Source of the DNA: Diplocarpon mali
Taxonomy: Eukaryota; Ascomycota; Leotiomycetes; Helotiales; Drepanopezizaceae
Direction: 5' to 3'
Length of the DNA: 64,000 bases
Assembly (NCBI GenBank): GCA_024741835.1
Contig: JAENRP010000015.1
Location: 1 to 64,000 of the forward strand
A program made the position numbers and the translations under genes. Positions within the stretch are counted from its first letter, which is position 1. Each line of letters opens with the position of its first letter. Shown one piece after another: positions 1-57,743 of the stretch. Under the pieces are notes generated by a model, which saw nothing but the letters and a program-made list of their open reading frames with translations, made no database searches and was not told the DNA's origin.

Positions 1-5
1 ACTTT

Positions 6-33
6 TTACCTATAGGCCGGGCCTAGGAGTTAG
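6..33. repeat. Palindromic unit, H-1
   Basis: Arms CCTATAGGCC / GGCCTAGGAGTTAG. It lies just 3' of ORF B in copy H. Its counterpart in copy I is lost in the run of N at 38526-38601. Confidence 0.75.
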
Positions 34-431
34 AAAACGAAACTAGCAAAATAAACAAATAAGCTATAGAGTTGTAAAAACAATTAAAAATAGTACTAAC
101 CTAGATATCAATTTTCCTTAGTTCTCTTTAAAGGATAAGGAGAACTATTATTAGATAATACTCTTTTTATAAAGCGCTTACTTCTTTTTAATAGTTTACT
201 ATTAGTATTAAAAGAGTCTGGTCTTAGTATTATAAGAGCTTTAGTATTTTATAAAGATGCTAGTATAGTTTGATAGCTTCTGCTAATAGGAAGGGAGACT
301 TATATCGCGGCGTTATTTATTATTATCCTCTTTATTATTATTATCATCCTTTAAAGAGTTATCTACTACTAAGGAGGACGCAGTAGGAGATTCTATAGCT
401 ATAACCTCCTTAGCCTTGCCTTTCTTTAGAT

Positions 432-458
432 TGAGTTGCGGACCGGGCCTAGGAGTTG
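432..458. repeat. Palindromic unit, H-2 (ORF B C-terminal region)
   Basis: GAGTTGCGGACC / GGGCCTAGGAGTTG. It is the counterpart of 38110-38136 in copy I, where it is read MTPRPGLQF. Confidence 0.8.
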
Positions 459-1252
459 TATTAGGGGTTTTTGCATAAGGCTTTTTAGTGCTGTACTTCT
501 TAAGAAGAATTGTCTTATTAATTACATTATTAGCCTTAATATTATTATTAGTGCCTTTCGTCTTGGCCTAGGATTTGTCCTTATATAGTTATAGCTCTAA
601 GTATTAAATCAGTTTTTAAGTATAGGTAAAATTATTAAAAAGTTCTTACTTATACTTCTTTAGATAGGTTATTAGCTGACCTATATCTTTGGATAGCAAC
701 TCTTTTACTATTATTACTACTAATAGATCGTTCTATAGTTATCTCCCTATAAGTGCTTCTGATAGTAGGCCACCTTTTATTATACTAAGTATTATATGAA
801 ACTTAGCTAACGATTCCCTAGCAATACTCTATCTTATAGTACTCGGTTTCTTTATACAGATAGACTTAATATAAAACTCGTCTAAGTCAGTACTATTTTC
901 AAGTGAGTTATTGCTAATAACTTCTATATAATTATTACTAATAGCAAGGAACCTACCTTTTCCAAGCTCTTTACTAGACTTCAAGTTAACAAACGTTCCT
1001 TATCTTATAAATATAGAGAATAGGATAGTCTTATTAGAGATATATTCCTTAAGTAGCGTCCTAGTCTTAATATTTAATTCTTTCTATTATATTGCGTTTT
1101 ATACCAGATTTAGTAAGACCTATTAAGCATTCTTTAGGCGCAAGGGAGTAAGAGCTAATAATTTATAGGATTTTTCCTATATAGCGAATTCTCTAATTGA
1201 TTATTTTACTATAAGTATCATATAGTAATTAATAGTCTTACTATCAAGGGAG

Positions 1253-1281
1253 CTGACCTATAAGCTAGGCCTAGGAGTCAG
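1253..1281. repeat. Palindromic unit, H-3 (ORF B)
   Basis: CTGACCTATAAGC / GGCCTAGGAGTCAG. Counterpart of 37288-37316 in copy I (peptide LTSRPSLQV). Confidence 0.8.
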
Positions 1282-2482
1282 CCTTACGAATCTTATATTA
1301 GCGTCAATCTTAGTAGAAATAACTCTCAAATAGTAGTCAATGCCTATAAACTATACAGCCTTAGGATATACTACTAGCTTATATAAAGAATTATAGCAAG
1401 TTAATAAAGTACTAAGATATAGCTTATAATACATCCTCAAAGTCTATTGTATTAAACTGTGAGTTATATTATAAAGGAAGGTAGAAGGAGGGAAAGGCTT
1501 CTTATCTAAGATTCAGAAATAGTGCCTATACATTTCCATTTCCTCTTATGCTAATATTAAAAATGAATTCTTTCCTTAAGAACTATGACTATATATGCGA
1601 ATTATGCTTAGGAATGCGCAATTAAATAATTTAAGCATATTTAAGAAACCCTTAATGCAAAGCGATATTAAGGTATCTTTAATTAATATTGTTTTATATT
1701 AGGCAAGGGTTTAAGTGATATTATAGAATAATTTCAAAGCCTTAGGTGCTACTTTAAACTTAGAGAAACCTAGCGACATATCTTTTTTAATCTAATTAGC
1801 TATTCTATTACCAATAGCCACTATTATATAATTTCTAAGGTATAATAAGAATAATCTTAGATCGGGAGCAATATAAAATTTATAAAGGTTAGATGATACT
1901 TCTTCGTTAATAATGCCTATTAATGCTAGTCCGCAGTATAGTATATATTATTATTTATAGAAGGTATAAAATTTCTCAAAATAGAAGTCTTTAAATATCC
2001 TTATTACGAATTTACTTAGGCGAGTTTTCATTTCTAGTATTACTATAATTCTAAATTTATTACTATAGTATAGTATTATCTTAATATTAAGAGGGACTTA
2101 ATAATATTTTATAAAGATTATTATCGTAGTATCTTTAGGCTTCTCCTTAAGCATATAATAGTCGCCCTTTGATTTCTTATAGTCGATAAAGAACTATATA
2201 ATATTATCTAAGGAGAATTCGTTTTATTACAGTTTTATAATCTATTTAATAGCTCTTGCTATTGCCTCTTATACTAATAAAACATCTCTCTAGTTTTCCT
2301 TTTTCAAATGCTTTATTATAGACTTATAGAATTTTAAAATAAACTTTTGCAGATCTTCGGGAAAGGTCTATATAATATCCGCAATATCCTTCTTAGTATT
2401 ATTAAAAATTTCTAAGATATTAGTAATAGTACTCCCTTCTTTATCTGATAAATCTTCTTCTAAGTCTATAATATTATATATA

Positions 2483-2512
2483 CTAACCTGTAAGCTAGGC
2501 CTGCGACTTAAT
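2483..2512. repeat. Palindromic unit, H-4 (ORF B)
   Basis: AACCTGTAAGCTAGG / CCTGCGACTT. Counterpart of 36058-36087 in copy I (peptide LTREPGLQI). It ends about 90 bp before the Copia C1 insertion point. Confidence 0.75.
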
Positions 2513-2604
2513 TTATTTACTACTAGTATTTGAGGTATTCTAGGCATTTCTAAGGATAGTGATTTAAACTTATCTAAGTCTAATGATTCGGGATTATAAT
2601 AGTT

Positions 2605-3198: not shown

Positions 3199-6100
3199 AA
3201 TGGCAATAGTATCCGATTCTGATCGAAACACTAAGCCTAAAGACCTCTAACTCTCTTAGAAGAACTGGCAATAATAGTTCAACGATTTAGAGCTTTACTT
3301 TAAGAGCAAAGGCATCGAAATAGCAATTTAAAAGACACTTATTAAATACGCGAGAATAGCCTCCTATACTCCTTCTACTGATTTGTCTACTTCCACTTTA
3401 ATAGCTAATACAACTGCTAAGGATTTGCTAGATATATTAAATAAGCTTAGCTTAAGAGCTTTAGTAGATAATAACCGAGAATCCTAAAGGCAGATTTTAA
3501 ATATAGAAAAGGAGAAAGAGTATAGGCTGGCCTTAGCTAAATGCAAGCTTAAGATTAATAGAGGTTTAAGCGACGAAGATTAAGATTTTATTTAAGTTTA
3601 TAATAATGTAAAGATAAGATAGGATATATTAAAGGTAAAATACTCTTAGACAATTGCCTTTAATACTTAGCATCTGCTATAGCAAATCACTTCATTTTAG
3701 TATAGAAAAGACAAAGATAGCAAGGATATAGATATAAATATAGACTTTGCCTAGTCTATACTACGTAAAGCAAGGAGGAGAGTAAGAGCTATAGATCTTA
3801 GGATAGCTATGACTTTTAGGGAAACTTAGCTTTTTAGTTTCCTATTTAATAGTCTCCCTTTTAAGTTTGCTATTGCAAAATAATCTCTTCTTGTTTAACC
3901 TAACCTTAAGATCTATAAGAAGATCGACCTCCTTCGAACTATCGAGTAAGACCTTAAAGGACGCTCTAAATCGGCAAATGCCGCGTTATAGGGCAACGAT
4001 AAGCCCGAGAAGAGGAAGGAGCGTAGGATAAGCCCTTGAGCTTATCGGAGATGCTACTTCTATAATAGTACTTATAATATTACTAATTATAAAGTTAGAA
4101 GGCAATTAATTAATATAGTTGCTAGCTTTAATATTAAAAAGCAATTAAAGCAGAAGTTAAGAAGCAAACTGCCCTTATCCTACCGAAGGCCGCAACTACT
4201 AAGGAAAGGCAAAGGAAAAGGCTATTTAGTTAAAACTTTAGCAAATACCTCTAATAATAATAGTAGGTTATTTAAACCTAAATCCACTTCTAATAATTTA
4301 GATAATAATTATAATAAAGATGCTTACGTTTTAAAAGCCGATCTTTGTAAGATCCTTGAATCCGACTAATATAGTGATACTAGTTGTATAGTATATATGA
4401 TTAATAAATCCTACCTATTTAAAGGCCTGCTTATTAAAATAAAAAGGCGCTCTATTAAAGTTAGTAGTAGAAGGTTATATATAGACTTAATAGGTATAAT
4501 AGAGATAAATATCGCTAGCGTTTCTTTCCTTTTGCAAAATATTCTCTTTATACCTAGCTTAAGTATTAATCTTTTATTTAGCTATAAGATTTATATAGAG
4601 TTAAATTATATAGGAGTTTTTAATAATTAATTTATATAATTTATAAATGATAATTATAAAGTGATCTTTAAGGCTAAAATCAAAGATGGACTTTATATTA
4701 TCTTAAAGGTGATATTATAGAAATTAACTCTTAGGCTAGACTTATAAGTGGATTCCTTTAAGGAAAGTGCACTCTCCACCCTAATACAATTGAGTGAGAA
4801 TAAGGAGAATAGATAGACTTTTAAGCTAGGATTGCAAGTAAAATTCGCGAAAATGACTCTTAAGCTAGGACTATAGGTAGAGTATAAGGTATCCTCGAAG
4901 ATGACTCTTAAGCTAGGATCATAAGTGAATTTAGTAGAAATGACTTTTAAGCTAGGACTGCAAGTGGATTCTGCAAATTCGCTAATAATAACTCTTAGGC
5001 TAGGACTGCGAGTGAAATTCGCAAATTCGTTAGAGATGACTCTTGAGCTAGGACCGCGAGTAGATCTTGCGGTTTTACTAAAAACGACTCTTAAGCTAGG
5101 CTCGCAATTAGAAAATGGCAAAACCTCAAACTACTATTACTAGTCCTTTCTAGCTGCTAATAATAAAGTATCGACTGATAATAGGCTATTAAAGCTATTA
5201 GAAGCCGAAAGCCTATTAAGGTATTAGCTAATATATAGAAGATTCGCATATCTAAGGCTAAAGAAATTAAAGGGCTTATATAAGGTCTTAACTTTAAAAT
5301 AGAAGATCTAAGTATTAAAGGATCGCCTAGTATACTGAATTTGTAAGCTAATAAAATTTTAAAATCAAACGCAAACTAAGCTTAGTTTATAGAAAGATTC
5401 GATACTAGCACTAATATCTATTAATACTGCTAGACTATTTATAACCTTAATTAAAGGAAATAATTAGTTTTCTTAAATAGTAGATAACTCTATTTAGTAG
5501 ATATAGACTATTTGCGCTAGGACTAAATCTAAGCTTATAAAAAAGCTGGAAACTTGGAAAGTGATAAAGGAACGCTAGACCTAGTTAAAGCTAATAGCTA
5601 TTAGGTCTAATAACATATTAAAGATTAGGGCAAAGCTTAACAAATAGGTAAAATAAGGAGTTTGTTATAAACTAATTATAATATACAAAGGTTCCTATTA
5701 GAATAGTATCGCTAAGCAAAGCATCTAATAAGCAGAGACTGATTATCGCGCTCTATTATAAGATGCTAACCTACTATTAGAATTCTAAGACCTTGCGGTT
5801 AAGGTAGACGTATACTTATAAAATAGAATAGGTAGTAGATTAATAGTTAATAGCACCCGAATATCGCTATATAAGGCATATTTCAGATAGAAACTAAGCT
5901 TAGACTATATCTGCGTTTTTAAAAGCATCTACTACTCCTATATTAGTCTGAAGTCCTAGCCTATAGGTATAAAGAGTAAGAAGCTAATAGACTAAGGTAG
6001 AGAGTATATATTTGTTAAGTATATTAAATAGATAATAAAGCAATAGATAGTATATGCACTAGACCTAGGGTAAGTAATTATATCTTTAGTAGTTGAGTTT

Positions 6101-8206: not shown

Positions 8207-8218
8207 TAGGCTTAAGGA

Positions 8219-8375
8219 CGACTCCTGGGCCCGCCTTGCGAGTCAGGTTACGTAGTCTTATAGAGTAAAGTTTTTTTTTTAAATTGACTCCTAGGCCTAG
8301 ACCGCGAGTCAAGTCATATAGTCTTATAAAGGAACGCTTTTGGAAATTTAACTCCTAGTCCTACCTTATAAGTAA
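8219..8375 (+). repeat. Three palindromic units in the C1 3' UTR
   Basis: Units lie at 8219-8246, 8284-8312 and 8349-8375, about 65 bp apart, between the Gag-Pol stop and the 3' LTR. The first two share the following sequence TAGTCTTATA, so the spacer was duplicated along with the unit. The same trio exists in C2 (25964-26119) and C3 (56336-56491). Here they are probably not translated. Confidence 0.85.
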
Positions 8376-8511
8376 GATTAGTAATTTTAATAGAGGTTGC
8401 TATTAATTAATTGTTTTTAATTTAGAAAGATACTTAAGAGTTGGATTAGCGCAAAAGGATAGTTATTATTTTCTTAACTGCAGGTCAATCAGAGTAAGGT
8501 CTAAGTAAGGG

Positions 8512-8706: not shown

Positions 8707-8775
8707 TAGTTAGCAGTTTGTATTTCTAGTATTATAAGTACCTTATATTTAAGGACTTCTCTATTATATGCTAAT

Positions 8776-8804
8776 TCTACTTATAGGCCAGGCCTATAAG
8801 TCAA
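8776..8804. repeat. Palindromic unit, H-5 (ORF B N-terminal third)
   Basis: ACTTATAGGCC / GGCCTATAAGTC, a near-perfect palindrome even after RIP. Counterpart of 35881-35908 in copy I (peptide LTRRPSLQV). Confidence 0.85.
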
Positions 8805-9689
8805 ATTTTCTTCGTTAATTAGTTCTACCAGGGGTAGTAGCATTTTCTAAGCAGCGGAAACTACAAATTCCTATCTCTCTATTTTATTATTAAAATAGTT
8901 TATAGTATACTTAGTAAGATAGATCATCTTTTCTTTTATAATAAGTAGATTATATTATAACTATTATAGGCCAAGGGTGTTTAAAATTGTCTGATTAGGA
9001 AAGGCCAGATTGTCGTACTACGCTAGATCGTCTTTTATAGTCTGAATAGTAGAGTGTATAATAATGCTTAAGAACCTAATAAATTTTCTGCCTCTTATAT
9101 TATTGCCTTAGAGTTTCTTTATACCTTCTTAGATAGTGAAATGATTTAATACCTATATAGCCTTTGCTACTAGTTGGTATATTTTAAAAATCTTGCCTAG
9201 TCTTTATAGGGTGTTATTAGTAGTGATATTAGTCATAAAGTAGGTTCAGAAGAGGGTGCTACGAGTGCTACTTATAAATTATAGCAATCTTTTTATACCC
9301 TTATTCTTTTTATCTCAGTTTCTCTAAAACAAATCCACTAATATAGAGTAACTTTAATACTTTTATAAAAACTTTTCACAATCAATTCCTTTGACCTTAA
9401 GCTCTCCTTTAAGAAAATCATCAAAGCTTAGGAACCCTTCCTTAATAGTAGAAATTCTATAGTTTAATACTTCAATAAAGGAATTTAAGAATACTTATTA
9501 TTCTATTTCACCTAACGTTCTATAGGTAGTTATAACGTCTTCTAATAATCTTAGTGACTTACTATCTTATAAAAACCCTCCCTTTAATATTAGTTCATTA
9601 TTAGTAGTGCTTAAGGACTTGCTACCTAAGGCAATAACTGATATATTCTTCTTAGGTATGGCCTTTTTACTTATAGTTAGTGGTGCTAT

Positions 9690-10259: not shown

Positions 10260-10436
10260 TCAATTGTTAGTTCTATTATTACTTTAGAGTCTTCTTCTCT
10301 TGCATTAGTTCTTATTTCTTAGCGATTTCTTAGCTTTAGGGACCTCTCTTAAAGGATCTTCTATTAATACTCTTAGATTTAGTAACTGAGGTTTATTTGA
10401 ACTATCTCATAGGCTTAAGCCAGCCGAATCTATCCT

Positions 10437-10463
10437 CACTTGCGGGCCGGGCTCGCAGGTCAG
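10437..10463. repeat. Palindromic unit, H-6 (ORF A C-terminal region)
   Basis: ACTTGCGGGCC / GGGCTCGCAGGTCAG, one of the least mutated copies. Counterpart of 34231-34258 (LTRKPGLQV). Confidence 0.85.
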
Positions 10464-11319
10464 TCTTGGCGTTTCTAAGCTTAAGGGTAAAAACAGGGGA
10501 TTAGTTTCCAAATTAGGGTCTAATACTATACTAGCGTCTTAGTTCGTCCCTTTTCCAAATCTTCTTATAATAATGCCTTTATCAATTAATGCATTAGGCT
10601 CTCGGATAGCATTTACTTTATTATATTATCTTTAAGACTTAAGTTTATAAAGAAGCGACTTAGTATTTGTAACGTTTATCTAAGCCTTAATAAGGGCGTT
10701 AAATAGCTTCTGATTATATTCTATAAGGTGGATTTTTAATTCGTCTTTATTAAGAAGAAACAACTCTTATACTTCGATTATAATTAATGGATCCGTTTAA
10801 GAGTATTGATTAATAATGGCTTTAAAGAGGCTACTGCAGTTTTTAAGATGAAAAGCTGCCTTAAAAGGTATAGTAGTTTTACTTGCGTTAATTTATTAAA
10901 GTACTAGAGGTTGCTTTAAAGCAGAGACTAAAAAGATAAGATTAGAGATTCGAGTCTTATTTTCTAAGGTATTCTTATTATAAATAGCTATATAATTATT
11001 ATAAAAGGCTATAAAACCACTAGTCCTATAAGAATTATCCAAAAGCATTTTAAGAAGGTGTCTCTATTTTATTATTACTATAATTAGATTACTATTATTA
11101 GTAATAGGTCGTAAGATCTCCTTTCGCTTTAATTTTACAGTTATTTAAGCTAGTTAAGATTTTGAACCAAGTGCTTAGGAAGTCTATTGACTTATCTTCT
11201 TTATAAATAGAGTGAGTTTTATATTTAACTAAAAGCCGACCTACCTATTAAGGCTTTTAAAAGCTAGCCCTTATTTAATTAGTAGGATCTAATAATTTAA
11301 GACTTGCTTTCTAATAAAA

Positions 11320-11348
11320 TTGACTCGCGGGCCAGGACTGCGAATGAA
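11320..11348. repeat. Palindromic unit, H-7 (ORF A)
   Basis: TTGACTCGCGGGCC / AGGACTGCGAATGAA. Counterpart of 33346-33374 in copy I. Confidence 0.85.
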
Positions 11349-12705
11349 AATCGGAATTTCTTTATTAGTAGCACTTGCATCTCTTTTTATTAAAACGATT
11401 TAATTATAAAGACTAAGGCCAATTAATTAAAGAGGTTTAAAGTAGGCTATAAGCTAATAGGTTCCTTTACTTCTTACTATTATAACTAAGAGGTAGAGTC
11501 TATAGTGCATTCGAAGGACTTATTAAGTAAGACTGAATATCATATTATAAAGAAAATAAGAAGGTATAAAGGTTGCGTTATCTATAGGGCAGAAGTAATA
11601 AAGATATATCTTTGCTTTTTATCTTATAATAGAGAGGAATATACTTATAAAAGCACTATTATTAGTAGTAAAATTATTAGTTAAAAAGCGGTATCCGAAG
11701 GGTTTAAGCATTACAATTGACCCTTCTTCCTCTATTTCCTCTTGCTATTTATTGCTTAATAATATTAATAAAAAGGAATTATTCTATTTAATTAGCTTTA
11801 ATACTTTTAAAGCTTTAGGATTAGCCTTGAATTTTATAATACTTAAAGATGCCTCTATTATTAATAGGTTAGATTTGCATAACTTTAAAGAGACGAAGAA
11901 TTAATTATTAAAGTAGATTAGAAAAAGATCAATATCTTCTGCTATATAAAGAAGTTCAAGGTATTTAATAGTTTTATTAATATTAAATCCTTTATAATTA
12001 AGACTATAGTAAACCGAAAGAGAGCGAATATAAAGGTTGTAAAGTCTTCTTCCTTTGATTTCTACGCTAAGAAGATACTATCAAAAGCGAGTTTTTATTG
12101 CAAAGGACACTTGAATATTATATCATTCTCTAAGTTTAAAGTTAAGAATGACCGATTAAGGTATATTACTATAATTACAAATATCCTAATCAATAGATTC
12201 CTCTTTGCGTTCTCTTTCTTATAAGATAAAATAGTCCTACTTAGCATCCGAGAGACTAGGTTTTTAACTTCTATAGTTATTAAAGAATTAAACAATATCT
12301 ATAAGGGCAAACTTATCTAGGATAAGCTATTAAATCTATTTAATAACTCTCTTAATTATCTCTAAAGCAGTAGGAATAAGGTCTTCTCTTATATTATCAT
12401 TTCTAAATTAGTTGCATATAGATATAAAGAAGTTAAGAACTAGCTCCTTTAAGTTATTAAAGAAGGAGTTTAAGCAAGCGCATAGTCTTTTAGTTTTAAA
12501 TTGCAAATCAGCTAAGGTAGCTATTAAACGATCTATCCTTCTTAAAGGTTGAGCTAAAATTAGTCATTTAGCTAAAGGAGAGTCCTTTAAAGATTTTGAA
12601 AATTCCAAAGAGGCTGCACTAAGCGTTTAAGCAATCTATTTAGTAGCGATTTCTAAAATTATTTTAATAAAAGGCAGGTTAGGTCCAGTTTTAAAATTCT
12701 CATTT

Positions 12706-12735
12706 CTAACTCCTAGTCTAAGACCGCAAGTTAAA
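12706..12735. repeat. Palindromic unit, H-8 (ORF A)
   Basis: AACTCCTAGTCT / AGACCGCAAGTT. Counterpart of 31960-31988 (LTRSPKLRV). The Copia C2 insertion in copy I is about 230 bp away. Confidence 0.8.
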
Positions 12736-13969
12736 TTATATAGTTTAACGCTTATTATATCTTTAGGCTAAGAGGCGAATTTTAAGGTAGGCTTAATTAC
12801 AAATAACTAATTCTCTTCTTTATCTTTAAAGAAATCTTATCTAAACTCTAGTATAAAAGTCCAGTTTTCTTTTAAAATAAGTAAACTATAAGTAGAAGCG
12901 CAAAGCCTTAATATATTAATAATAGTACTATTAGGTAAAGTAATATTTGCAGCCTAATTTGATCTTTTTATAGCTTTATTAGCTGCTATAAGTACTATAT
13001 TAGATAGGCCTATAAATCTGCAACTGCGAATTCGATTGCTTTAGAATTTTGCTACTCCTTTTTAAATGATAAAGAAATTGAGAATTTGAATAGCTTTAGC
13101 TATAGGAGTATTTTCCTTAAGAATTTTTAATAATACTCGCCTTCTATTATTAGAATCAATATTTATTAAGAAATGTAAACGAAATAGGAGTCCTCTCTTA
13201 TTAGTAGCTAAATTATCCAGTTGTCGAATAGATTCTTTCCTTTTATCTTAGTCTATTTTAAAAGTATCGGCTAAGGTTATATATTAATTTGCGTTAGCTA
13301 AGAATTCCTTTTTAAAGATTCCCTTTAGTCTTAATTCTTCAGTTAGGAAGTTATTAAATTAGAGAATTCTAAGGGCTACTTAGGTTAAAAGGTTACTAAT
13401 AGCATTTGCATAAGCTAAAAGGAGTTTTTATTACTCTATATCTCCTAAGGCTATATAGGTCGATTTAAAGCTCTTTAATAATGCAATAGCTTTACTATCT
13501 TAAGAGAAGTTTATAACTAGTGCTTATTTATCTCCTATTATAGTAGATAAAACCATTTATAAGTTCTTTAAAGGTATATTACTTATGAAAGATAGGGAGT
13601 ATAAATAAGAGAGTTTAATAAGGTATAAGAATTAAAAGGGTATATAAGCTGCAATAGGTTTATTATATATATATTAAGAAAATTAGACTTTTTATTTATT
13701 ATTTAAGGAAAGTAATAGGAATATTATAATTAAAGGCTAATATTAAGAATATAAAATAAGTTAAAGTAGGCAAGAATTTAAAGTGATCTTAAAAGATCTA
13801 TATTTTAAATAATAAAGGAGGCGACCTTGCTAAAAATGTAAAAATAAGGATTAAAGGAAGGTAGGATAATTAATAGGCTAGGAAATCGTTTAGTATTCCT
13901 ATCTGCGTTCCTTAGATATTTTAGGAATAATAACTTAAGGTTGCGATTAATTAGGTATTTTAATATTCT

Positions 13970-13998
13970 TTACTTATAAGACTAGCTTATAGGTTAGG
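13970..13998. repeat. Palindromic unit, H-9 (Pol C-terminal region)
   Basis: ACTTATAAGACTAG / CTTATAGGTTAG. Counterpart of 24590-24618, read LTYKPVL-stop-V in the Pol frame. Confidence 0.75.
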
Positions 13999-15403
13999 TT
14001 AGAAAAATCTTAGTCTTTATCCAAGGGTTTAAAATTGCTTATATTGCCGTTGGTTCTTATAGAAGATTCAAAGGTTATATCAATTTTTAATTCGTCTTCT
14101 AAAGGGAATAAGGTCTAATCGTATTAATAAAAGCGCTTTAGTTAATTAGCTGCGAAGGTTCCTTTGATATTAACTCTATTAAGTTCCTAAAGAGAATAGT
14201 ATCCCTTTTCTTTCTACTTAGATTTAACCTTAAATAGACTAAGCTATTAATAGTTAAGTTTAATATCTATTAATATATTAATACTTCTTATAATATTATA
14301 AACTAAAATAAGATCATCTTTTCAAATAGGGTGCGATTTGAGTACTTTAAAAGTAGCTTATACTTCCTTAGCTTTTTCCTAATATCGTTTCTTTTATAGA
14401 ATGATTTCCTTTATATTTATATCTTAAAGCTTAAGTTATTAGCATCTTATTACTAGCAAATCGGAACGGTTTTGAATTTGATTATAATTAAATAATCTCT
14501 AAATAGGCTATCGGGATTCAAAAGGGAGCTATGCCTCTCTACTATAAATAAGGAAAAATAGTATAATTCTAATTAGTTTATAGATTATTATTTAATAAGC
14601 AAAGAGTATTTTATAAAAGTATTTTATCTAATTCTTAAATCCTTTATAAGTAACTTTAGATAGCTTATTAAAAATGTTATAATATCCTTGCTCTACTACT
14701 TTATTAGCTTTTGAGTTATACGCTAAGATTTGAACCTATTTAATATTATATTTTTATAAAAAAGCTTTAATTACTCCTTTATTTTTAAGGCCTCTATTAA
14801 TAGTTAGTCTACTAAAAAGTCCATAGTAATAGACTATATCTTCTTAAAGGAACTTTGCAATAGATTTAGAGTTAGAAGATCTTAAAGGTTGTCCTTTAAG
14901 CTATTTTAATAGGTCTTCCTTAATTAGAATAAAATATATAATCCTATTTTTAGTTATTAGTACTTATATAATATTAAAACTGACTTTATAGAAAAGGCCT
15001 AATAGCTAAGTTAGGAATAAGGGATTCTCTTTATAATTAGGTTTTCGTTTCTAATAAGGGACGCAACTTTTTATAAAGGCTTTACAGTCCTTAAAAGAAC
15101 CCTTTTAAAAGAATTTCCTTAAGAGTTAGTAGTAGGTAGACTTAGCTCCTTAGTAGCTAGTTTCCTTATAAATATCTTAGATAGCCTTAGCCTTTAATTT
15201 TTTATTATCTAAGCAGAGTTATATAAGAAATAAGTTATTACTTCTTTTAAATAATCGTCTTTTTTATATTAGATAAATTAGAGCTTTAGTTTTAAATTTC
15301 TAAAAATCCTTAAGAGCAACTGTCTTTAATTATTTAAGTATAATTAAAAATTTTGCAATTTCTTTAAAGTCATTTAAGTAGTTAGGTAATAAAATTCTCT
15401 TAT

Positions 15404-15433
15404 TTAACTCATAGGCTAGGCTTGCGAGTTAAG
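15404..15433. repeat. Palindromic unit, H-10 (Pol, before the integrase finger)
   Basis: TTAACTCATAGGCTAGG / CTTGCGAGTTAAG. Counterpart of 23156-23184. In Pol it is read in a different register from the other coding units. Confidence 0.8.
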
Positions 15434-17186
15434 TCCCTTTAAGGCAATATATTAATAGATAACTAACTTTATTCTTTACTCACTTATTAATATCTATTTT
15501 ATCTTCTTTAATCAAATCAAAGGGGTAGGGACGAGTTCTTCTTAAAAGGCTATTAGCAGTAGTATTTTTTATCCTTAGAATGTATTTGACTTCAAAGTCT
15601 ATTAGTCTTATCTAAGCAATCCATTTTATTAGTAAGGCTCTTAATAGGTCGCTTATAGCTCTATTCAGTTGTTCTACTAGCACTTTAACATTAATTTTAA
15701 AGATGAAGTAAGTGCTATAGAGGTTGCTTCTTATCTTTTTCATTACTTTTAAAGCTCTTTTGCATTCCTATTTAATAGTATTATACTTTATCTCTACTAG
15801 ATTCTAAAGACTACTTTTAAAGCAAGTTAAATGTCTTTTCTATTAGCTATTAGCTTATTAAAGGACGGTACCTTATCCGATTAAGCTTATATCAACTATT
15901 AGTATAATTGGCCTAGCGTCAGCTCTATAGTCTATTTTAATTAAATATAGCGCTTTAAGTAATGCTTACTTTAGTTGTTTCATAGCCTCTATTTAAGGTT
16001 CCTCTTATTAAAACTCAGCCCCTTTTTAAAATAAGGTATAAATAGGTGCTGCCTTTTTAGCGAAATCCTTAATTTAAATGCGATAGTATACTATAATGCT
16101 AATAAACGCGCAAGCTTTTACTACGTTATTATACCTCTTCTATTTATCGATTTTAAGTACTTTAGCCCTTTAAGGACTTCGGCTATTAGAATTAATAATA
16201 AAACTAACAATTTCTATTAATAGAAGATAGTATTATAACTTCAGACTAACTATTGCTCTTGCCCTTTCGAATTGTATAAGTACCTAGTCTAGGTTCTAAA
16301 TGTATTCTATTATAAATCGTTATATACTAAGAAGAACTTCTTTATAGTTATAGAATGATCTTAATCCTTTTACTCCTATATTATCTATATAAGGGAGCGT
16401 AATATTAGGTATATAATCTATTAGTATCTTATAGATTACTTAGACAAATTGAGCGATCGAATTTATAGCCCTTTAAGGTAATCTTATCATTTGAAGTAGC
16501 TTAAGAGGGGTTTGAATTGCTATTATATCTCTTAATTTAATATTAAGAATAAATTAGTTATATCTAAAGAAGAAGTTGATAAAAGAGCTATAGGTTAATC
16601 CTATGAATTCATTTAAGAACTTATTTATATTTAAAGGAATATTAGCGTCCTTAACTATTACTTAGTTTATCTCTACTACTACTATTATTAGTCTGTAAGT
16701 TCCCTTCTCTTTCTTAGTAATTAGGAACTATTTATTTTTATAAGGGCTATTATAAAACTTAAGAATACCTTGCTTTAGCCTATCCTTTAATATTTCGATT
16801 ACCTTTTCTTAAAGAGCTTTAAGGACCTTGAATGTTTTCTTTTACTAGGCTTTATAAGGTATTATCTTAATCTTAATATAAGGCGTAACCTCTTTTTAAA
16901 TTTAGCTAAGTTCTATCTAATCAAAAGCTAAGGCGTCCTCTCGATTTGTTAAGGTTTTATAAAGTAGTTCGCGTTCTTATTTTATTAAGTTATCTCTAAT
17001 TTTTAGCATATTGAAACGTTCTTTTATTAGCTAATATCTAATAGGTTTATTAGAAAATCTGCTTATAATAAATTTGTCGAATTTACTACCTAGCTTTAGA
17101 GGTTGAAGCTTCTTGTCTTATTTAAACCAATCATCTAGTCCTCTAGGCTTTAAGCTATCAGAGATTCCCTAATCCACCGGTTGTAC

Positions 17187-17431: not shown

Positions 17432-18128
17432 TTAATGACCTATATAAGGACCGATTTCTTAAGATTTCTATTCTTATACGACCTTATCGATCTCTTAGTT
17501 TGCAGATAAGAGACCGGCCTTTAAAATACGTCTTTGAAATACTTATAGCATTTTAATCAACTTTAAAACCCTTATCCTCAATCGCTTAATTACTTAGAAC
17601 TGTCGATTTTTATTTAGCAACTATTAATAACTTTAGATTTTCCCTTTTCAGCTCTATTTCGAAAACCCCTATTTTCTTCCTTAACTTTAAGATTTTCGGA
17701 ATTTTCAGCTTCCTAATATAAAAAGTTTGGCGAGCCTTATAATAGCAATCTTAAATAGCAGTAGTTTTAAGTACTTAAGTAATACTAAGCGCAAACTCTA
17801 ACTGGAAGTGCCTCTTTAAAATCTTTAGAAATCCGAATCTAATAATTCAGCCGCCTTAGCTTAATAGAACTTTAAAAACTGCCTTAGAATCGTCTCTAAA
17901 GACCCCTTTATTTTAAGGACTAATAGGAATTGGCTTAAAGGTTAAGAAGAATCTTAGATATAAACCTTATCTTAGAAATTAGTCTTTAATTAAGTAAACC
18001 TTATCTTATTGCGATTAATTGCAACGCTCTTATTAGCTATTTAGTACCCACTTAGAATCTTTTAGCAAACTTAGATTAAACTTTTAGTAGAATTCGGAAT
18101 TCTACTCTTAGGCTTAGCTTATAAGTAG
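17432..18128 (+). other. Leader of Gypsy copy I
   Basis: About 700 bp between the 5' LTR and the gag frame; copy H has the same at about 42290-42984 (reverse). Directly after the LTR copy H reads TTAGTAACC and copy I TTAATGACC. A primer-binding site beginning TGGTGACC is possible but not secure. A palindromic unit closes the leader at 18101-18129. No gene was seen. Confidence 0.5.
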
Positions 18129-18129
18129 G
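18101..18129. repeat. Palindromic unit, I-1 (start of gag)
   Basis: CTACTCTTAGGCTTAG / CTTATAAGTAGG. Counterpart of 42287-42314 in copy H. Confidence 0.75.
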
Positions 18130-20999: not shown

Positions 21000-21025
21000 G
21001 TTTGCCGATTTTAAATAATAGCAAT

Positions 21026-24618: not shown

Positions 24619-24709
24619 GAATATTAAAATACCTAACTAATCGCAACCTTAAGTTATTATTCTTAAAATATCCAAAGAACGCAGATAGGAATACTAAACG
24701 ATTTCCTAG

Positions 24710-37287: not shown

Positions 37288-37316
37288 TTGACTTCTAGGC
37301 CTAGCTTATAGGTCAA
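37288..37316. repeat. Palindromic unit, I-12 (ORF B)
   Basis: TTGACTTCTAGGCCTAG / CTTATAGGTCAA, in frame LTSRPSLQV. Confidence 0.85.
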
Positions 37317-38109: not shown

Positions 38110-38136
38110 ATGACTCCTAGGCCCGGCCTGCAATTT
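38110..38136. repeat. Palindromic unit, I-13 (ORF B)
   Basis: ATGACTCCTAGGCCC / GGCCTGCAATTTAA, in frame MTPRPGLQF. Confidence 0.85.
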
Positions 38137-38221
38137 AATCTGGCAAAGGGCAAGGCTAAGGAAGTAGTATTTATAGAATCTCCTACCTCCCCTTCCTCTA
38201 TTACCGACAATTCCCTTAAGG

Positions 38222-39014: not shown

Positions 39015-39203
39015 GTACTTTATCAGCCTTGCTTTTATATATAGTTCGAATATTAGCTAGTACTATACTTCTCTACTTCTTTCCTTTTTTATCAAATCTT
39101 ATAAAGCGGTCCGAATTTTCCTTTTTAAAAACAAATAAAAGATTTTCTAAGTTATTAATTTAAAGTGTATAAATGGAAATGTTATTAGTAATTTTATTGT
39201 TTT

Positions 39204-39231
39204 TCACTTGCAGGTCTAGCCTATAAGTGGT
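39204..39231. repeat. Palindromic unit, H-11
   Basis: TTCACTTGCAGGTCTAG / CCTATAAGTGG. Counterpart of 21189-21216. Confidence 0.8.
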
Positions 39232-39363
39232 TTTTAGGTTTTTCAAAATGATTAGTAAACTATTGAAATTTGTAAAACAAACCCTCTTTTCTACCTTATT
39301 TTTCTTTTTTTTAATTGTTAATCTAATAAAATGCTAATTGTACTATTTTTCAAAATTCCAGAT

Positions 39364-39393
39364 TTAACTCCTAGTCTAGGACTGCGAGTCAAA
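39364..39393. repeat. Palindromic unit, H-12
   Basis: TTAACTCCTAGTCTAGG / ACTGCGAGTCAAA. Counterpart of 21026-21055. Confidence 0.85.
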
Positions 39394-39418
39394 TCGCTAT
39401 TATTCAAAATCGGCAAAC

Positions 39419-42290
39419 TTACCTTTCTTTTACTATAACTCCTTGCTAAATGCCTTCTTTTACTAGTATTAAGCCTAGCCCTTATGCTAGCTAATCGTTT
39501 CTTAAAACCTTATTCTAGAATTCGGCTATATCTTTTACAATAACCATTTGTCCTTCTAAAGATCGATCTATATTTTAAAGACTAGCTTTTATAAGACTAT
39601 CTTTAGAATAGTTAAATATTAGCTAAGATTTTAAAATAAAGGGCATTTTTAAAAGAATATTATTTAAAGAATTCTCTATTATTAGAAAGTTAGTATAATT
39701 AATAATTCCTCTAACTCTAACCTTTACGTTTTTCACCTATCTATTAAAATTGTATTTTAATTTAAAGATAGTTAAATAAATAAGGAGTCGATCGCTAACG
39801 ATTATCAATTGAGCTATTTCTACTACTTTTCTAATTATTATATTAACTTTTGAATTACAATCGATTAGAGCCTTTACTTTAACTGATTCTTTTATAGAAT
39901 AAATAATAATAGGGCTTTTTATTATAACTGCTAAACAATTTCAATTAATATTTTAAGATATTAAAGCTATTACTATAATATTATAATACCTTTAGGTTCC
40001 TTTGTCTTTTGCAATTTAGAGACATTTAATTAAAGCTAAGTGCTTTTTAAAGTTCTTTTATATTACAATTTCCATTTCCTTATTATTATTCAAATCTTTA
40101 AAGGCAACTAGGATATACTTTCTTAGCACTTTATTAAAGCGTTTAATTAAATTAAATAGGTCTTTAAATATGAGGTTAATTTGCTAAGCTATAATATTCT
40201 TTATAGCTTTCTCTATTATAGTTGAAATAGTATATTTGTTAACGAATTTCTCTTATTTTAATATCTGTCTCTTTCGCTTAAGGTCAAGGGTTCGCGTAAT
40301 AACTTCGACTTCTTAATCTTTAAGCTTAAAGCTATCTTCGTCTATTATATCTTTAATCAATTTATCTACTATATTAGCTTTATCCTTATCTATTGCGGTT
40401 CTAGATTATTAAGTGTCTTTTAGCGTTTAGACTTTATATTAAGATTCCTAAGTTGTATACATTGATTTCTAGACTTTAGCTAGTTTTATTAGTATTAAAG
40501 GAGTGGTAGATCTAGAAGGACGTTAAGTATTCTAAGGGTTTTTAAATACAGAAGTAGTATTAATATTAGTAGATACATTATTATTAACCTACTTTAAAAT
40601 AGAGATTCCTCTAACTTTAGTAGCAGTTTAGTTCAAAGTTTAATTAATAAGCACTCCCTTAGGTAGATTGCTAGCTGGACTTATATATATATAAGTTAGG
40701 ACCTTAGAGTTGATTTTAATAATACGCTTCCGTTCAGCCAAATCCTTATCCTATTTTGTACTATATGTTATTATTCGAATAGTCTATAACTATAAACGAT
40801 TCTAGTGTTTTTTAATAGGGATAGCGTCTGGCCTAGGATCTTTAATATAAAGTATCCTATACTTATTAATATATATGACCTTAGTATTAATAAAATAAAG
40901 GAAAAGAGGGCAATCGTTATAGTACTTATATAAAGCATAGTTAGGTTCTTTATTATTGCAAAAGTTGCAGGTTAGTCGTCTTCTACTGTTTCCTTAGTAC
41001 CCTATAGTATTAATATTAATAGAGTGCTAGTTAGGATCAATTCCTCCTTCTTCAGCTAGCTATTGCATTCTTATATTAGCTAATTGTTTTAAATAATAAG
41101 AAGTAGGAGTCTGGTAATAAGAACTACTAGGTTGGCTTATAATAGCCGAGTTTTATCTATTACTAAACTAAGGAATATGCTATTTTTCCTATAAGAGATT
41201 ATTAATCCTAGTTTTTAAACTTTAGATTCAGAGTTCTGTAAATTAGGTCTTAAGTTCCTTAATTCTAGGGTTAGATCTTACTCTTAGGTTAGGCCTGCAA
41301 GTGAAAGGTATAACTATTAGGTTCTTTTTTACCTCCTTTATAACTTCTAGCGCTTTCGAGTATTCTTAGACCAGACTCTTAAGGTCTTTAGTATAAAAGG
41401 AAGTAAGGGCTTTTTCCTATTCTATAGTATTAATAGTTCTTTTACTAAGATCTGATTTTAAAGTAAAGGCTAAGAATTCCTTAAATAAGGCAAAGGTTAT
41501 AAGGTCTTGCTTATTAATCTTAAAATGCTTAATAATCTTATTTTAAAGGCTAGTGGGTAATTTAAGTAAGAAAAGGCGGCCTCTTTCAACTTTGCTAAGT
41601 ATTTTCTAGCTAATTAAGGTATTTGATATATAAGTAAAAGTCTAATAGTAGTTCTTAAGTTCCTTAGGAGTATAAGTGACTAAAACAAATTCCTTTAAGA
41701 AAGCTAGGGTATTGCGAATCTGCTATCTGTCAAATTCTCGGAATTCAGACTTAAGAGCCTTAATAAGGAGTTCCTATAAACTATACGTTTTCTATTTAAG
41801 GAGGGATTTAATAATATCTTTGCTTATATAGTTATAGTAGTAAGGAAGTCGAGAAATTATATCCTTTTATATAATACTAAAATCGTAATAAGTTTCCTTA
41901 TATTACTTAAGGAAATTAGTAATATTAGCGCTTATAAAGTAAGGAGCGCTAGGAGAACTAAGAAGGGGAAAGTGACTAATAATAGCTTTAAATGCAGCTA
42001 TTATTATTTTATACTAACTATTTAAGTTAATAGAATCTATTAAAGGCAAAGGAGAAGCTTTAATATTACAAGATTAATTGCTAAAAGGAGTACTTCGAAA
42101 TTCAAAAGGGCTTAAAGAACGTTTAAAATCTAAGTCAATCTTAAAGTGATTAGGACGAGTTTAAAAAGATTTAGACAAAGGGTTAATAAAAAGTTTAAAA
42201 TTGTTATTATTATTAGTATTTTTAAGCGTTAATATTGAAAAAGTAGGTAGTAGTCTTAAGTTGTTTAAAGATGTCTTTTTATCCTCTTAC
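39419..42290 (-). pseudogene. Gypsy copy H Gag-protease
   Basis: Minus-strand counterpart of 18129-20999, ending at TAA 39419-39421 where copy I has TGA. The protease-like motif is near 39840-39870 and the Cys-rich stretch near 40930-40990. The start is approximate because no ATG can be fixed in either copy. Palindromic unit at 41278 (in Gag), with another just upstream at 42287. Many TAA/TAG interruptions; inactive. Confidence 0.72.
41278..41305. repeat. Palindromic unit, H-13 (Gag)
   Basis: TTACTCTTAGGTTAGG / CCTGCAAGTGAAA. Counterpart of 19110-19138. Confidence 0.8.
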
Positions 42291-42314
42291 TTATAGGCTA
42301 GGCCTAAGAGTAGA
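42287..42314. repeat. Palindromic unit, H-14 (start of gag)
   Basis: TTACTTATAGGCTAGG / CCTAAGAGTAGAA. Counterpart of 18101-18129. Confidence 0.8.
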
Positions 42315-42984
42315 ATTCCGGATTCTATTAAAAGTTTAATCTAAGTTTGCTAAGAGATTTTAAGTAGGTACTAAATAGCTAATAAGAGTATTGTAACTAA
42401 TTATAATAAGATAAGGTTTACTTAATTAAGGACTAATTTCTAAGATAAGGTTTATATTTAAGATTCTTTTTAGCCTTTAGGCCAATTCCTATTAGTCCTT
42501 AGAATAAAGGGGTCTTTAGAGACGATTTTAAGGCAATTCTTAAAGTTCTATCTAGCTAAGGCAGCTGAATTATTAGATTCGGATTTCTAAAGATTCTAAA
42601 GAGATACTTCTAATTAGAGTTTGCGCTTAGTATTACTTAAGTACTTAAAACTACTGCTATTAGAGATTGCTATTATAGGGTTTATCAAACTTTTCATATC
42701 GAAAAGCCGAAAATTCCGAGAATCTCAAAGTTAAAGAAGAAAATAGGGGTTTTTAAAGTAGAGCTAAAAAGGGAAAATCTAAGGTTATTAATAGTTATTA
42801 AACGAAAATCGATAGTTCTAAGTAATTAAGCGATTAAGGATAAGGGTTTTAAAGTTTAATTAAAATGCTATAAGTGTTTTAAAGACGTATTTCAAAGGCC
42901 GGTCTCTTATTTGCAAACTAAGAGATCGATAAGGTTGTATAAGGATAGAAATCTTAAGAAATCGGTCCCTACGTAGGTTACTAA

Positions 42985-51316: not shown

Positions 51317-54300
51317 ATGGCAATAGCATCCGATTCCGATCGAAATACTAAGCCTAAAGACCTCTAACTCTCTCGGAAGAACTAGTAATAATAGTTCGAC
51401 GATTTAGAGCTTTACTTTAAGAGTAAAGGCATTAAAATAGCAATTTAAAAGACACTTATTAAATACGCGAGAATAGCCCCTTATACTCCCTCTACTAATT
51501 CGTCTACTTCTACTTCAATAGCTAATACAACTACTAAAGATTTGCCAAATATACTAAATAAGCTTAGCCTAAGAGCTTTAGTAGATAATAACCGAGAATC
51601 CTAAAGGCAGATTTTAAATATAGAAAAGGAGAAGGAGTATAAGCTAGCCTTAGCCAAATGCAAGCTTAAGATTAATAAAGGTTTAAGTAATAAAGACTGA
51701 GATTTTATTTGAGTTTATAATAATGCGAAGATAAGATAGGATATATTAAAGGTAAAATACTCTTAAACAACTACCCTTAATACCTAGTATCTACTATAGC
51801 AGATTACTTCATTTTAGTATAGAAAAGATAAAGATAGTAAGGATATAGATATAAATATAAACTCTACTTAGTCTATACTATATAAAGTAAGGAGGAAAGT
51901 AAGAGCCGCAGATCCTAGGATAGCTATGACTTTTAAAGAAACTCAGCTTTTTAATTTCCTACTTAATAGCCTCCTTCCTAAGTTTGCTATTGCAAAATAA
52001 TCTCTTCTCATCTAACCTAACCTTAAGATCTATAAGAAGATCGACCTCCTTTGAACTATTAAGCAAGACCTCAAAGGACGCTTTAAATCGGCAAATGCTG
52101 CGTTATAAGGCAATAATAAGCCTAAGAAGAGGAAGGAGCGTAGGACAAGCCCTTAAGCTTATTAGGGATACTACTTCTATAATAGTGCTTATAATATTAC
52201 TAATTATAAAGTTAGAAGGCAACTAATCAATATAGTTGCTAGCTTTAATATTAAGAAGCAATTGAAGCAAAAGTTAAGAAGCAAACTGCCCTTATCTTAC
52301 TAAAGGCTGCAATTACTAAGGAAAGGCAAAGGAAAAGGCTATTTAGCCAAAACTTTAGCAGATACCTTTAATAATAATAGTAGGTTATTTAAACCTAAAT
52401 CCACTTTTGATAATTCAAATGATAATTATAATAAAGATGCTTATATCTTAAAAGCCGATCTCTATAAGATCTTTAAATCCGATTGGTATAGTAATACTAG
52501 TTGTATAGCATATATAACTAATAAACCCTACCTATTTAAAGGCCCGCTTATTAAAATAAAAAGGCGCTTTATTAAAGTTAATAATAGAAGGTTATATACG
52601 AATTCGATAAGTATAGTAAAGATGAATATTGCTAGCGTTTCTTTCCTTTTGCAAAATGTTCTCCTTATACTTAGCTTAAGTATCAATCTTTTATTTAACT
52701 GTAAGATCTATATAAAGTTGAATTATATAAGAGTTTTTAATAATCAATTTATATAGTTTATAAATAATAACTATAAAGTGATCTTTAAAGTTAAAATTAA
52801 AGATAGACTTTATATTATCTTAAAGGTGATATTATAGAAATTGATTCCTAGGCCAGACCTATAAGTGGATTCCTTTAAGGAAAGTGCACTCTCTGCCTTA
52901 ATATAATTAAGTAAGGATAAGGAGAATAGATAGACTCTTAAGCTAGGATCGCAAGTAAAATTCGCAAAAATGACTCTTAAGCTAGGACTATAAGTAGAGT
53001 GTAAGGTATCTTTAAAGATGACTCTTAAGCTGGGATTATAAGTGAATTTAGTAGAAATAACTCCTAGGCTAGGACTATAAGTGGATTCTATAAATTTGCT
53101 AATAACGACTCTTAAGCTAGGATTGCAAGTGAAATTTGCGAATTTATTAAAGACGACTCTTAAGCTAGGACTGCAAATGGATCTTGCAGTTTTATTAAAA
53201 ATAACTCCTAAGCTAGGCTTGCAATTAGAAAATAGCAAAACCTTAAACTGCTATTACTAGTCCTTTCCAGCTGCTGATAATAAAGTATTAACTAATAATA
53301 GGCTATTAAAGCTATTAGAAGCCGAAAGCCTATTAAGGTATTAGCTAATATATAGAAGATTCGCATATCTAAGGCTAGAGAAATTAAAGGGCCTATATAA
53401 GGTCTTGACTTTAAAATAGAAGATCTAAGTACTAAAGGATCGCCTAGTATACCGAATTTGTAAGCTAATAAAACTTTAAAATCGGACGCAAACTAAGCTT
53501 AGTCTATAGAAAGATTCGATACTAGCGCTAATATCTATTAATACTATTAGACTATTTATAACTTTAATTAAAGGAAATAATTAGTTTTTTTAAATAATAG
53601 ATAACTCCACTTAGCAGATATAGACTATTTGCACTAAGACTAAATCTAAGCTTATAGAAAAGCTAGAAACTTAAAAAGTGATAAAGGAATACTAGACCTA
53701 GTTAAAGCTAATAGCTATTAGGTCTGATAATATATTAAAGATTAAAGCAAAGCTTAATAAATAGGTAAAATAAGGAATTTATTATAAACCAATTATAATA
53801 TATAAAGGTTTTTATTAAAATAGTATCGCTAAGCAAAGCATCTAGCAAGTAGAGACTGATTATCGCACTCTACTATAAGATACTAACCTACTATTAGAAT
53901 TCTAAGACCTTGCGATTAAGGTAAACGTATACTTATAAAATAGAATAGGTAGTAGACTAATAGTTAATAGCACTTGAATATTGCTATATAAGGCATATTT
54001 CGGATAGAAACTAAGCTTAGACTATATCTGCATCTTTAAAAGCGTCTACTACTCCTATATTAGCCTAAAGTCCTAGCCTATAGGTATAAAGAGTAAGAAG
54101 CTAATAGATTAAAGTAAAGAGTATATATTTGTTAAGTATATTAAATAGATAATAAAGTAATAAATAGTATATGCGCTAGACTTAAGGCAAGTAATCATAT
54201 CTTTAATAATTGAGTTTAATAAATCTTAAAATAAGGGGGAGCTATCCTTAAAGCTTTATATACTTAAAGATTTGCAAAGTATACTACTCGACGGTAATAC

Positions 54301-56323: not shown

Positions 56324-56335
56324 TAGGCTTAAGGA

Positions 56336-56491
56336 CGACTCCTAGGCCCGCCTTGCGAGTTAGGTCATATAGTCTTATAGAGTAAAGTTTTTTTTAAATC
56401 AACTCCTAGGCCTAGACTATAAGTCAAGTCATATAGTCTTATAAAGGAACGCTTTTGAAAATTTAACTCCTAGTCCTACTCTATAAGTAGG
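56336..56491 (+). repeat. Three palindromic units in the C3 3' UTR
   Basis: Units at 56336-56362, 56400-56427 and 56463-56491, as in C1 and C2. Confidence 0.85.
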
Positions 56492-56626
56492 ATTAGTGAT
56501 TTTAATAGAGGTTGCTATTAATTGATTATTTTTAATTTAAAAAGATACTTAAAAGTTAGATTAGCGCAAAAGGATAGTTATTATTTTCCTAACTGCAGGT
56601 CAATTAAAGTAAGGTCTAAGTAAAGG

Positions 56627-56821
56627 TATTAAGATAAGTAATATAGCTATCACTTTGATATATTATCATATAACCTTACTACTTAATTAATAGGATATTA
56701 ATATATATATAGCTATAAGTAAGAAAGAGGTAACCTTCCTTCCCTAACTCTTACTAATATATCGACTATCGACCTCTAGAAGTTTCCTATACCTACTACG
56801 CCGACTTACTTAAGCTTAATA
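56627..56821 (+). repeat. 3' LTR of Copia C3
   Basis: 195 bp, preceded by GTCTAAGTAAAGG (polypurine tract candidate) and followed by TAAGC. Confidence 0.93.
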
Positions 56822-57743
56822 TAAGCTTAGATTTAGTCTTAGCGCAAATAGTCTATATCTATTAAGTAAAGTTATCTACTATTTAAGAAAACCAATTATT
56901 TCCTTTAATTAAGGTTATAAATAGTCTAGTAGTATTAATAGATATTAGCGCTAGTATCGAATCTTTCTATAGATTAAGCTTAGTTTGCGTCCGATTTCGA
57001 AGTTTTATTAGCTTATAAATTTAATATATTAAGCGATCCTTTAATACTTAGATCTTCTATTTTAAAGTTAAGACCTTATATAAGCCCTTTAATTTTTCTA
57101 GCCTTAAATATGCAAATCTTTTATATATTAGCTAATACTTTAATAGGCTTTCGGCTTCTAATAGCTTTAATAGCCAGTTATCAATCGATGCTTTATTATT
57201 AGCGGCTAAAAAGGATTAGTGATAGCAGTTTGAGGTTTTGCCGTTTTCTAATTGCAAGCCTGGCTTAAGAGTTATTTTTAATAAAACCGCAAGATCCACT
57301 TGCAGTCTTAGCTTAGGAGTCGATTTCCTAGAAATGGCAAGATCTACTTGCGGTCCTAGCTTAAGAGTCGATTTCCCAGAAATAGCAAGATCCACTTGCG
57401 GTCTTAGCTTAAGAGTTGTCTTTAACGATTTTGCGAATTTCACTCGCAGTCTTAGTTTAAAAGTCATTTCCGTAAGTTTCACTTGCGATCCTAGCCTAAG
57501 AGTCGTTATTAGCGAATTTGCAAAATCCACTTATAGTCTTAGCTTAAGAGTTATTTCTACTAAATTCACTTATAATCCTAGCTTAGGAGTCATCTTTAAA
57601 GATACTTTATAATCTACCTATAGTCTTAGCTTAAGAGTCATTTTCGCGAATTTTACTTATAATCCTAGCTTAAGAGTCTATCTATTCTCCTTATCCTTAT
57701 TTAATTATATTAAGGCGAAGAGTGCACTTTCCTTAAAGGAATC
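56822..57743 (-). mobile_element. Copia C4, truncated: integrase start and repeat array (part 2)
   Basis: This continues C4 after C3. It matches C2 from 28795 to about 29583. It breaks at 57743 inside the long spacer before the last array unit, so C4 lacks Gag, protease, leader and 5' LTR. The sequence beyond is unrelated and less AT-rich. Confidence 0.9.
57247..57687 (-). repeat. Expanded palindromic array in C4 (10 units present)
   Basis: Ten units remain where C2 has seven before its last one. Compared with C2 there are three extra: two of 48 bp (about 57300-57395, with the linker GAAATGGCAAGATC) and one of 39 bp (about 57444-57482). The net gain is 135 bp, or 45 codons, in frame. The two 48-bp extras are close copies of each other, so they look like recent duplications. 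Confidence 0.85.

Follow-up and report, generated by a model that had tools for sequence, protein, structure and literature searches.

The first 64,000 nucleotides of contig JAENRP010000015.1 from Diplocarpon mali (assembly GCA_024741835.1), here called the window, hold 70 copies of a short palindromic unit that recurs inside unrelated retroelements. In the window and at further loci of this genome, the unit was found at 20 separate locations (tandem neighbours counted once) in five groups of elements, i.e., ten in Gypsy H/I, four in the unclassified element D, two in Copia C, three in Copia K and one in Gypsy G3. As the original prediction from the window had stated, it crosses from Ty3/Gypsy to Ty1/Copia elements and is present in coding and non-coding parts. 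We tentatively propose that the unit, which is one DNA sequence throughout, was copied between retroelements during reverse transcription and then filtered for open reading frames (ORFs), a reading that we consider a serious possibility, if somewhat short of probable.

Sequence and number of the units

Units were located with a 33-column weight matrix, built up in iterative rounds of training on the window plus eight loci. The matrix matched 74 times in the window, 72 times with a score of at least 14, and not once in the reversed window. Four matches (5941, 28365, 50280 and 54058; scores 11.8–14.3), all at one place in Copia C, were dropped as chance matches; the one at 54058, the only one of the four that was translated, is conserved coding sequence in a different phase. 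The remaining 70 comprise 14 units in Gypsy H (including D), 13 in Gypsy I (including the second D copy, D'), 34 in Copia C arrays and 9 in Copia C 3' regions. The chance cluster was removed from these 70 units and from the 22 flank clusters given below, yet was retained in the site sets for column information, pairing, direct repeats, covariation and third codon positions.

The unit core measures about 29 bp (matrix columns 3–31); outside it, most columns carry at most 0.25 bits and a few 0.3–0.5 bits. Its sequence is a GC-rich imperfect palindrome with the centre ACTCSYRGGCC-N-GGCCYRSGAGT, in which pairing between columns 10 and 24 is seen in 6 of 24 sites. The palindrome of about 28 bp that had been predicted thus holds as a short palindromic unit, with a core nearer 29 bp and imperfect arms. 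The genome was scanned over 49.4 Mb in 676 contigs. With at most one mismatch, the 14-mer of the original prediction had 158+163 matches compared with 2+1 for the reversed pattern, and the 23-mer palindrome was found at 1472 places with at most two mismatches compared with 0 for its reversed pattern, counts that speak against an origin of the motif from composition alone. The ratio of matrix to pattern matches (94:7) suggests, as a rough estimate, a genome total on the order of ten thousand units.

Elements and places that carry the unit

All units listed here are matrix matches. In Gypsy H they lie at 3..35 and, within ORF2, at 429..461, 1251..1283, 2481..2513, 8774..8806 (a near-perfect palindrome), 10433..10465, 11318..11350 and 12704..12736. 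Two more are found in its pol, one in the C-terminal tail at 13967..13999, where the local frame is ambiguous, and one in the linker between RNase H and integrase at 15402..15434, in phase 2. Gypsy I carries a unit in the pol linker (23153..23185, phase 2), one in the pol C-terminal tail (24588..24620) and seven in ORF2 (31958..31990, 33344..33376, 34229..34261, 35879..35911, 36056..36088, 37286..37318 and 38108..38140). The 4.2-kb element D (17184–21404) sits between Gypsy H and Gypsy I and holds units at 18099..18131, 19108..19140, 21024..21056 and 21186..21218; D' (39015–43232), after Gypsy I, holds them at 39201..39233, 39362..39394, 41275..41307 and 42284..42316. The 14 and 13 sites predicted for Gypsy H and I agree with our counts, which include D as a separate element with no Pfam match.

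An assembly gap of 76 N in Gypsy I (38526–38601) explains why it has one unit fewer. The gap begins at the expected start of the missing unit, the counterpart of 3..35 in Gypsy H, and the flanks align up to the gap edge. With this one exception, paralogues are present in every cluster of H/I, D and C, so that corresponding sites are occupied and the units are older than the present element copies, both as predicted. The site at 18099..18131 is common to D and its relative L051 at 66% identity, hence some units are old. The contig itself starts (window position 1) two bases before a unit.

Copia C has three copies in the window (2600–8749, 25586–31739 and 50721–56823), each with an array of eight units, at 4722..5114 (plus strand), 29224..29616 (minus strand) and 52839..53231 (plus strand, all in phase 0). 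A partial copy carries ten units at 57245..57682 (minus strand), where 48-bp units follow one another with 90% matches. Arrays of 8, 8, 8 and 10 units bear out the eight or more expected in the Copia C Pol. Likewise, three units lie in each of the three 3' regions, at 8216..8378 (copy 1, plus strand), 25961..26122 (copy 2, minus strand) and 56333..56493 (copy 3, plus strand; phases 2, 0 and 1). In the homologous D. coronariae protein PZA11_002196 (P0133), eight units span residues 501–628, seven recognized by pattern and the last one (TPEPGSQL) by eye, and the array is flanked by Pol_BBD (381–455) and GAG-pre-integrase (663–710, below cut-off); the array of copy 1 corresponds to this linker.

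Four additional genome sites were fetched, three of them Copia K and one a relative of D. Copia K (L028) has three units between SH3 (565–634, just below cut-off) and RVT_2 (793–1033), a pair of units upstream of this trio, and one unit behind the RNase H end, past a stop common to the three copies read. The frame of this last unit differs between copies by poly-T length, and the stop ahead of it may have been made by repeat-induced point mutation (RIP). Both unit orientations are present in Copia K, with the readings TPRPGLRV and TRRPGLGV. In three Copia K loci (L053, L054, L052), the sequence TTAAGGGGTGATTT occurs repeatedly close to the 3' end, where it adjoins units as it does in mid-ORF. 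Gypsy G3 shows two units in the D. coronariae protein P0001 between RNase H (216–321) and integrase zinc binding (475–531), and protein P0016 has one unit in gag, an extra G3 site that is seen in protein only. Taken together, coding units occupy interdomain linkers, tails and the long ORF, and the others are non-coding near 3' ends.

With flanks, 132 units fell into 23 flank clusters, or 22 without the chance match; clusters partly merge or split tandem neighbours, and the count by place is 20. Beyond the core of about 29 bp we found no clear flank homology between families. Spread beyond these elements was assessed in 20 pieces of 10 kb taken across contigs at set places, not as a random draw. 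Bins with GC below 0.42 contained 22 units in 32,000 bases, all within 2 of the 20 pieces, and gene-like bins with GC of at least 0.42 contained 0 units in 164,016 bases. We estimate a density of about 20 locations per roughly 29 kb of bearing elements, from which it follows that, were host DNA hit at the same rate, the gene-like sample should contain about 100 units. Units in host genes, which the original prediction had proposed to look for, were not seen in this sample.

Reading frame and encoded peptide

The coding units form 14 groups (seven in ORF2, two in pol, one for the Copia C array, two in Copia K and two in G3). Thirteen of them read the unit in one phase, phase 0, as the peptide T-P/R-x-P-G-P/L-R/Q-V; only the linker in H/I pol departs from this. 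The pol tail site 13967/24588 was counted as coding despite ambiguous local stop counts, and without it the fraction is 12 of 13. The Copia K unit at 2271 was counted as outside the ORF and thus as non-coding, though in L028 it agrees with the RVT_2 frame in phase 0. By single units, phase 0 is used in 8/8 of the Copia C array, 7/7 of Gypsy I ORF2, 1/2 of Gypsy I pol and 5/5 of the Copia K ORF units, as well as by the G3 linker and gag units.

Among 82 readings of the 41 least mutated units, 75 were open in phase 0, 41 in phase 1 and 29 in phase 2, so that an open-frame filter alone predicts about 52% phase 0. Over 24 sites, some of them non-coding, seven third-codon columns average 1.02 bits, and the columns of the other two codon positions 1.39 bits. 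This conservation of third codon positions argues against a purely protein motif. Since units also lie outside coding frames, descent solely as vertically inherited protein motifs, which had been considered beforehand, does not account for them.

In a Gypsy protein, P0017, residue 241 marks the sequence STREPGPRV in the linker between protease and reverse transcriptase. The best match of this protein in the genome is 61%, and STREPGPRV may be either a chance match or a unit in another fungus.

Arrays and changes in repeat number

The arrays are true tandem repeats with periods of 39/48 nt in Copia C and 45 nt in G3. To compare lengths, we took the best-scoring copies, 47 of 1,116 candidates for Copia C and 48 of 762 for G3, joined paired matches (10 Copia C and 3 G3 copies) and omitted the partial Copia C match C55:28327-30735, which leaves 46. 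Relative to P0133, these 46 copies differ by -201 (1), -66 (1), -27 (13), -18 (1), +21 (21), +60 (1) and +108 (8) nt, and neighbouring main length classes lie 39 or 48 nt apart, i.e., by the array periods. The 48 G3 lengths relative to P0001, which has two units, are -45 (16), 0 (28) and +9, +45, +63 and +90 nt (one each); the +9 and +63 nt classes do not match the 45-nt step. One unit was present in each of the 12 G3 loci read, and G3 states of two, three and four units are deduced from length alone. For Copia C, arrays of eight and ten units were read directly in the window.

In-frame steps of this kind fit array growth by tandem duplication instead of repeated insertion. One Copia C copy (G000:C33:229972-232662) lacks 201 nt relative to the D. 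coronariae protein; the missing stretch falls within the array and looks like the outcome of recombination between two units.

How the units may have spread

The edges of the short core, the restriction to some retroelements and the survival in frame, taken together, speak for short patches being copied from the RNA or cDNA of one retroelement into that of another. A template switch within the particle might carry over a stretch that can form a hairpin. Where the new copy breaks an ORF it would be lost, and where it gives a flexible proline/glycine-rich peptide it would persist. Each site would then be multiplied as its element amplifies, and slippage or unequal exchange would alter the arrays. 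The unit probably is a passenger without own function. Long-patch exchange between families was rejected, as clear common flanks are lacking despite a mild match excess; likewise, selection for the hairpin was rejected because the arms do not covary.

Several observations weigh against copying during reverse transcription. No transfer step was observed, and no empty site was found at the DNA level. For the linkers of G3 and H/I, outgroup proteins without the unit do exist, yet their linkers vary in length, are in part equally long and are not shorter by one unit, so that replacement instead of insertion is possible. Being a retroelement is not sufficient, since three other Gypsy families (9 of 10 fetched pol regions of about 2.7 kb each; the tenth is G3) lack the unit, as does the less AT-rich Copia at 57.7–64 kb (57700–64000; RVT_2 at 60011–60679, minus strand). 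Folding as RNA speaks partly for the copying, since of six units five reached -10.6 to -14.6 kcal/mol and three had z < -3. The other three were not clearly better than shuffles (z -1.5, -1.7 and +0.2), and for the array unit at 57293 shuffled sequences fold just as well. There is no covariation between the two arms of a unit (identity 0.668 with their own partner compared with 0.652 with other arms), hence nothing shows upkeep of the hairpin. Cross-family comparison of 16-base flanks gave at least 10 matches in 410 of 23,864 comparisons compared with 118 at random, with a maximum of 13. We read this excess as composition and non-independent copies, and a shared flank may still contribute. Finally, the phase bias of 13/14 exceeds the open-frame expectation of 0.52 (p = 0.0014), and collapsing ORF2 and Copia K to one each gives 6/7 (p = 0.075). 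Frame survival accounts for much of the bias, to which selection at the peptide level may add.

Alternatively, the unit could be a minimal mobile palindrome, similar to miniature inverted-repeat transposable elements (MITEs) or Rickettsia palindromic elements (RPEs), that was inserted as DNA by some transposase or nuclease and whose in-frame copies survived. This we think unlikely, although edges at the 29-bp core without clear common flanks and the two orientations in Copia K agree with it. Direct repeats of 2 bp adjoin the core in 9 of 24 sites compared with 3.3 expected, but this is one of 1280 combinations tested, is not convincing as a target-site duplication, and implies a 31-bp insertion that would shift the frame. 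Lone arms are absent from the window, where 29 of 29 arm matches belong to full units, and no unit was seen in the 164,016 bases of gene-like GC. A parent transposon with unit ends was not found either, the arm check having covered the window, and units as the ends of a larger DNA transposon were rejected for want of lone arms there. With neither an empty site nor a convincing target-site duplication nor a parent transposon, insertion can only be inferred. Of the spread by insertion that had been predicted, dispersal over unrelated families stands, but no convincing target-site duplication was found and the arrays fit tandem duplication.

The peptide itself, TPGPGPRV, might also matter as a functional linker or as a processing or assembly motif that is kept and multiplied by selection. 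The single phase in 13 of 14 coding groups, the occurrence of one peptide in Copia C as well as in both gag and pol of Gypsy G3, and length changes by whole codons would all follow from this. We nonetheless judge it rather improbable, as third codon positions are conserved, Copia C 3' units stand in phases 2, 0 and 1, one Copia K unit lies past the shared stop, one pol site uses another phase, and a pattern scan of the 133 fetched proteins found the peptide outside D. coronariae in P0017 only. Far less credible still are cis-regulatory palindromes bound by a factor, presumably a fungal zinc-cluster protein, in the manner of the CGG-CCG motifs in the long terminal repeats (LTRs) of plant Sireviruses. 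GC-rich palindromes in large number per element are indeed described for Sireviruses in passages of PMC2829016; here, however, the units occupy ORFs and 3' regions and are absent from the first 2.1 kb of the third Copia C copy, and the phase bias has no place in such a scheme. We are equally sceptical of look-alike ordinary coding minisatellites, or of composition or RIP-like mutation yielding the motif. In their favour, the arrays are truly tandem and vary by whole units, and the region is AT-rich and depleted in CA+TG. A minisatellite would be confined to a single locus or gene family, whereas one core is shared by unrelated families in 22 flank clusters and five element groups, and reversed patterns match only 3 times (14-mer) and 0 times (23-mer). 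RIP-like mutation as source of the motif was rejected because the G3 unit sits in DNA of 47% GC (L033).

Relation to known systems

Rickettsia offers the best-documented case of coding palindromes spreading from gene to unrelated gene, its RPEs, which measure about 150 bp and lie in bacterial genes (PMC10969869). The unit resembles them as a palindromic repeat in unrelated ORFs that is read in frame as a conserved peptide (PMC10969869). In contrast to RPEs, it measures about 29 bp, belongs to a fungal nuclear genome, was found only in retroelements and forms tandem arrays. The likeness to RPEs that had been predicted therefore extends to in-frame reading (13 of 14 groups) and ends at size and organism; RPEs are the closest functional parallel, and the unit is RPE-like but not an RPE. 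In a stronger version, the unit would be a eukaryotic RPE counterpart, a selfish coding palindrome of about 29 bp that lives as a parasite of LTR retrotransposons, moves from Gypsy to Copia families or back at reverse transcription and is kept since its main phase gives a harmless flexible linker; this appears doubtful to us, more so than copying between retroelements as such.

Other systems share single traits. According to excerpts of PMC6649704, mitochondrial coding palindromes of Nematomorpha are inverted repeats inside translated genes, but these are long and perfect with both arms encoding conserved protein parts, whereas the unit is short, imperfect, shared between elements and nuclear. 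The same excerpts describe palindromic elements that interrupt mitochondrial protein genes of the fungus Magnusiomyces; those stay untranslated via bypassing, in contrast to open-frame units in nuclear retroelements. Sirevirus motifs, too, are numerous GC-rich palindromes per LTR retrotransposon, located in LTRs and before env and differing between elements (passages of PMC2829016), whereas here one sequence is shared across Gypsy and Copia and the sites, as far as mapped, are ORFs, linkers and 3' regions. MITEs likewise are short inverted-repeat units, but for the unit neither a target-site duplication nor a parent element nor insertions in the host were shown. Coding minisatellites, or variable number tandem repeats, share in-frame tandem units of varying number, but the unit is found in single copies, too, at many sites that have nothing else in common. 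Among the open-licence literature matches listed, no title or abstract describes the unit, and a term search for 'palindrom' gave 0 hits in the main text of two Diplocarpon genome papers (one of them PMC11527701).

A nuclear retroelement example whose copies number well above a thousand, with close ones differing in length, would allow the movement of such units to be studied. If our reading is true, it would open the question of retroelements carrying sub-parasites. The unit would then supply retroelement proteins with linkers and with variation in repeat number, and would also give rise to assembly gaps.

The window and its retroelements

Diplocarpon, the host, is a plant-infecting fungus. 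The window is largely AT-rich and filled with retroelements, and its CA+TG depletion (ratio 0.60) is the pattern that RIP-like mutation gives. An Rfam search of the window returned 0 matches. Copia C copies as well as the divergently oriented Gypsy H and Gypsy I were delimited by self-comparison. A domain search gave weak RNase H and integrase zinc-binding matches for Gypsy I and an RVT_2 reverse transcriptase match for Copia C. Behind pol, Gypsy I has an ORF2 of about 2,400 codons (31735–39012) with no Pfam match; every frame is interrupted; among the three sense frames, stops are overall rarest in one, and to this frame all seven units conform in phase 0.

The closest proteins to Copia C and Gypsy G3 are those of Diplocarpon coronariae. 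The third Copia C copy matches P0133 at 56% over 672 residues without gaps, the best Copia C copy of the genome at 79% and part of one copy at 89%. For Gypsy G3, the copy in L033 matches D. coronariae proteins at 87–88%, and the best copy of the genome at 90%.

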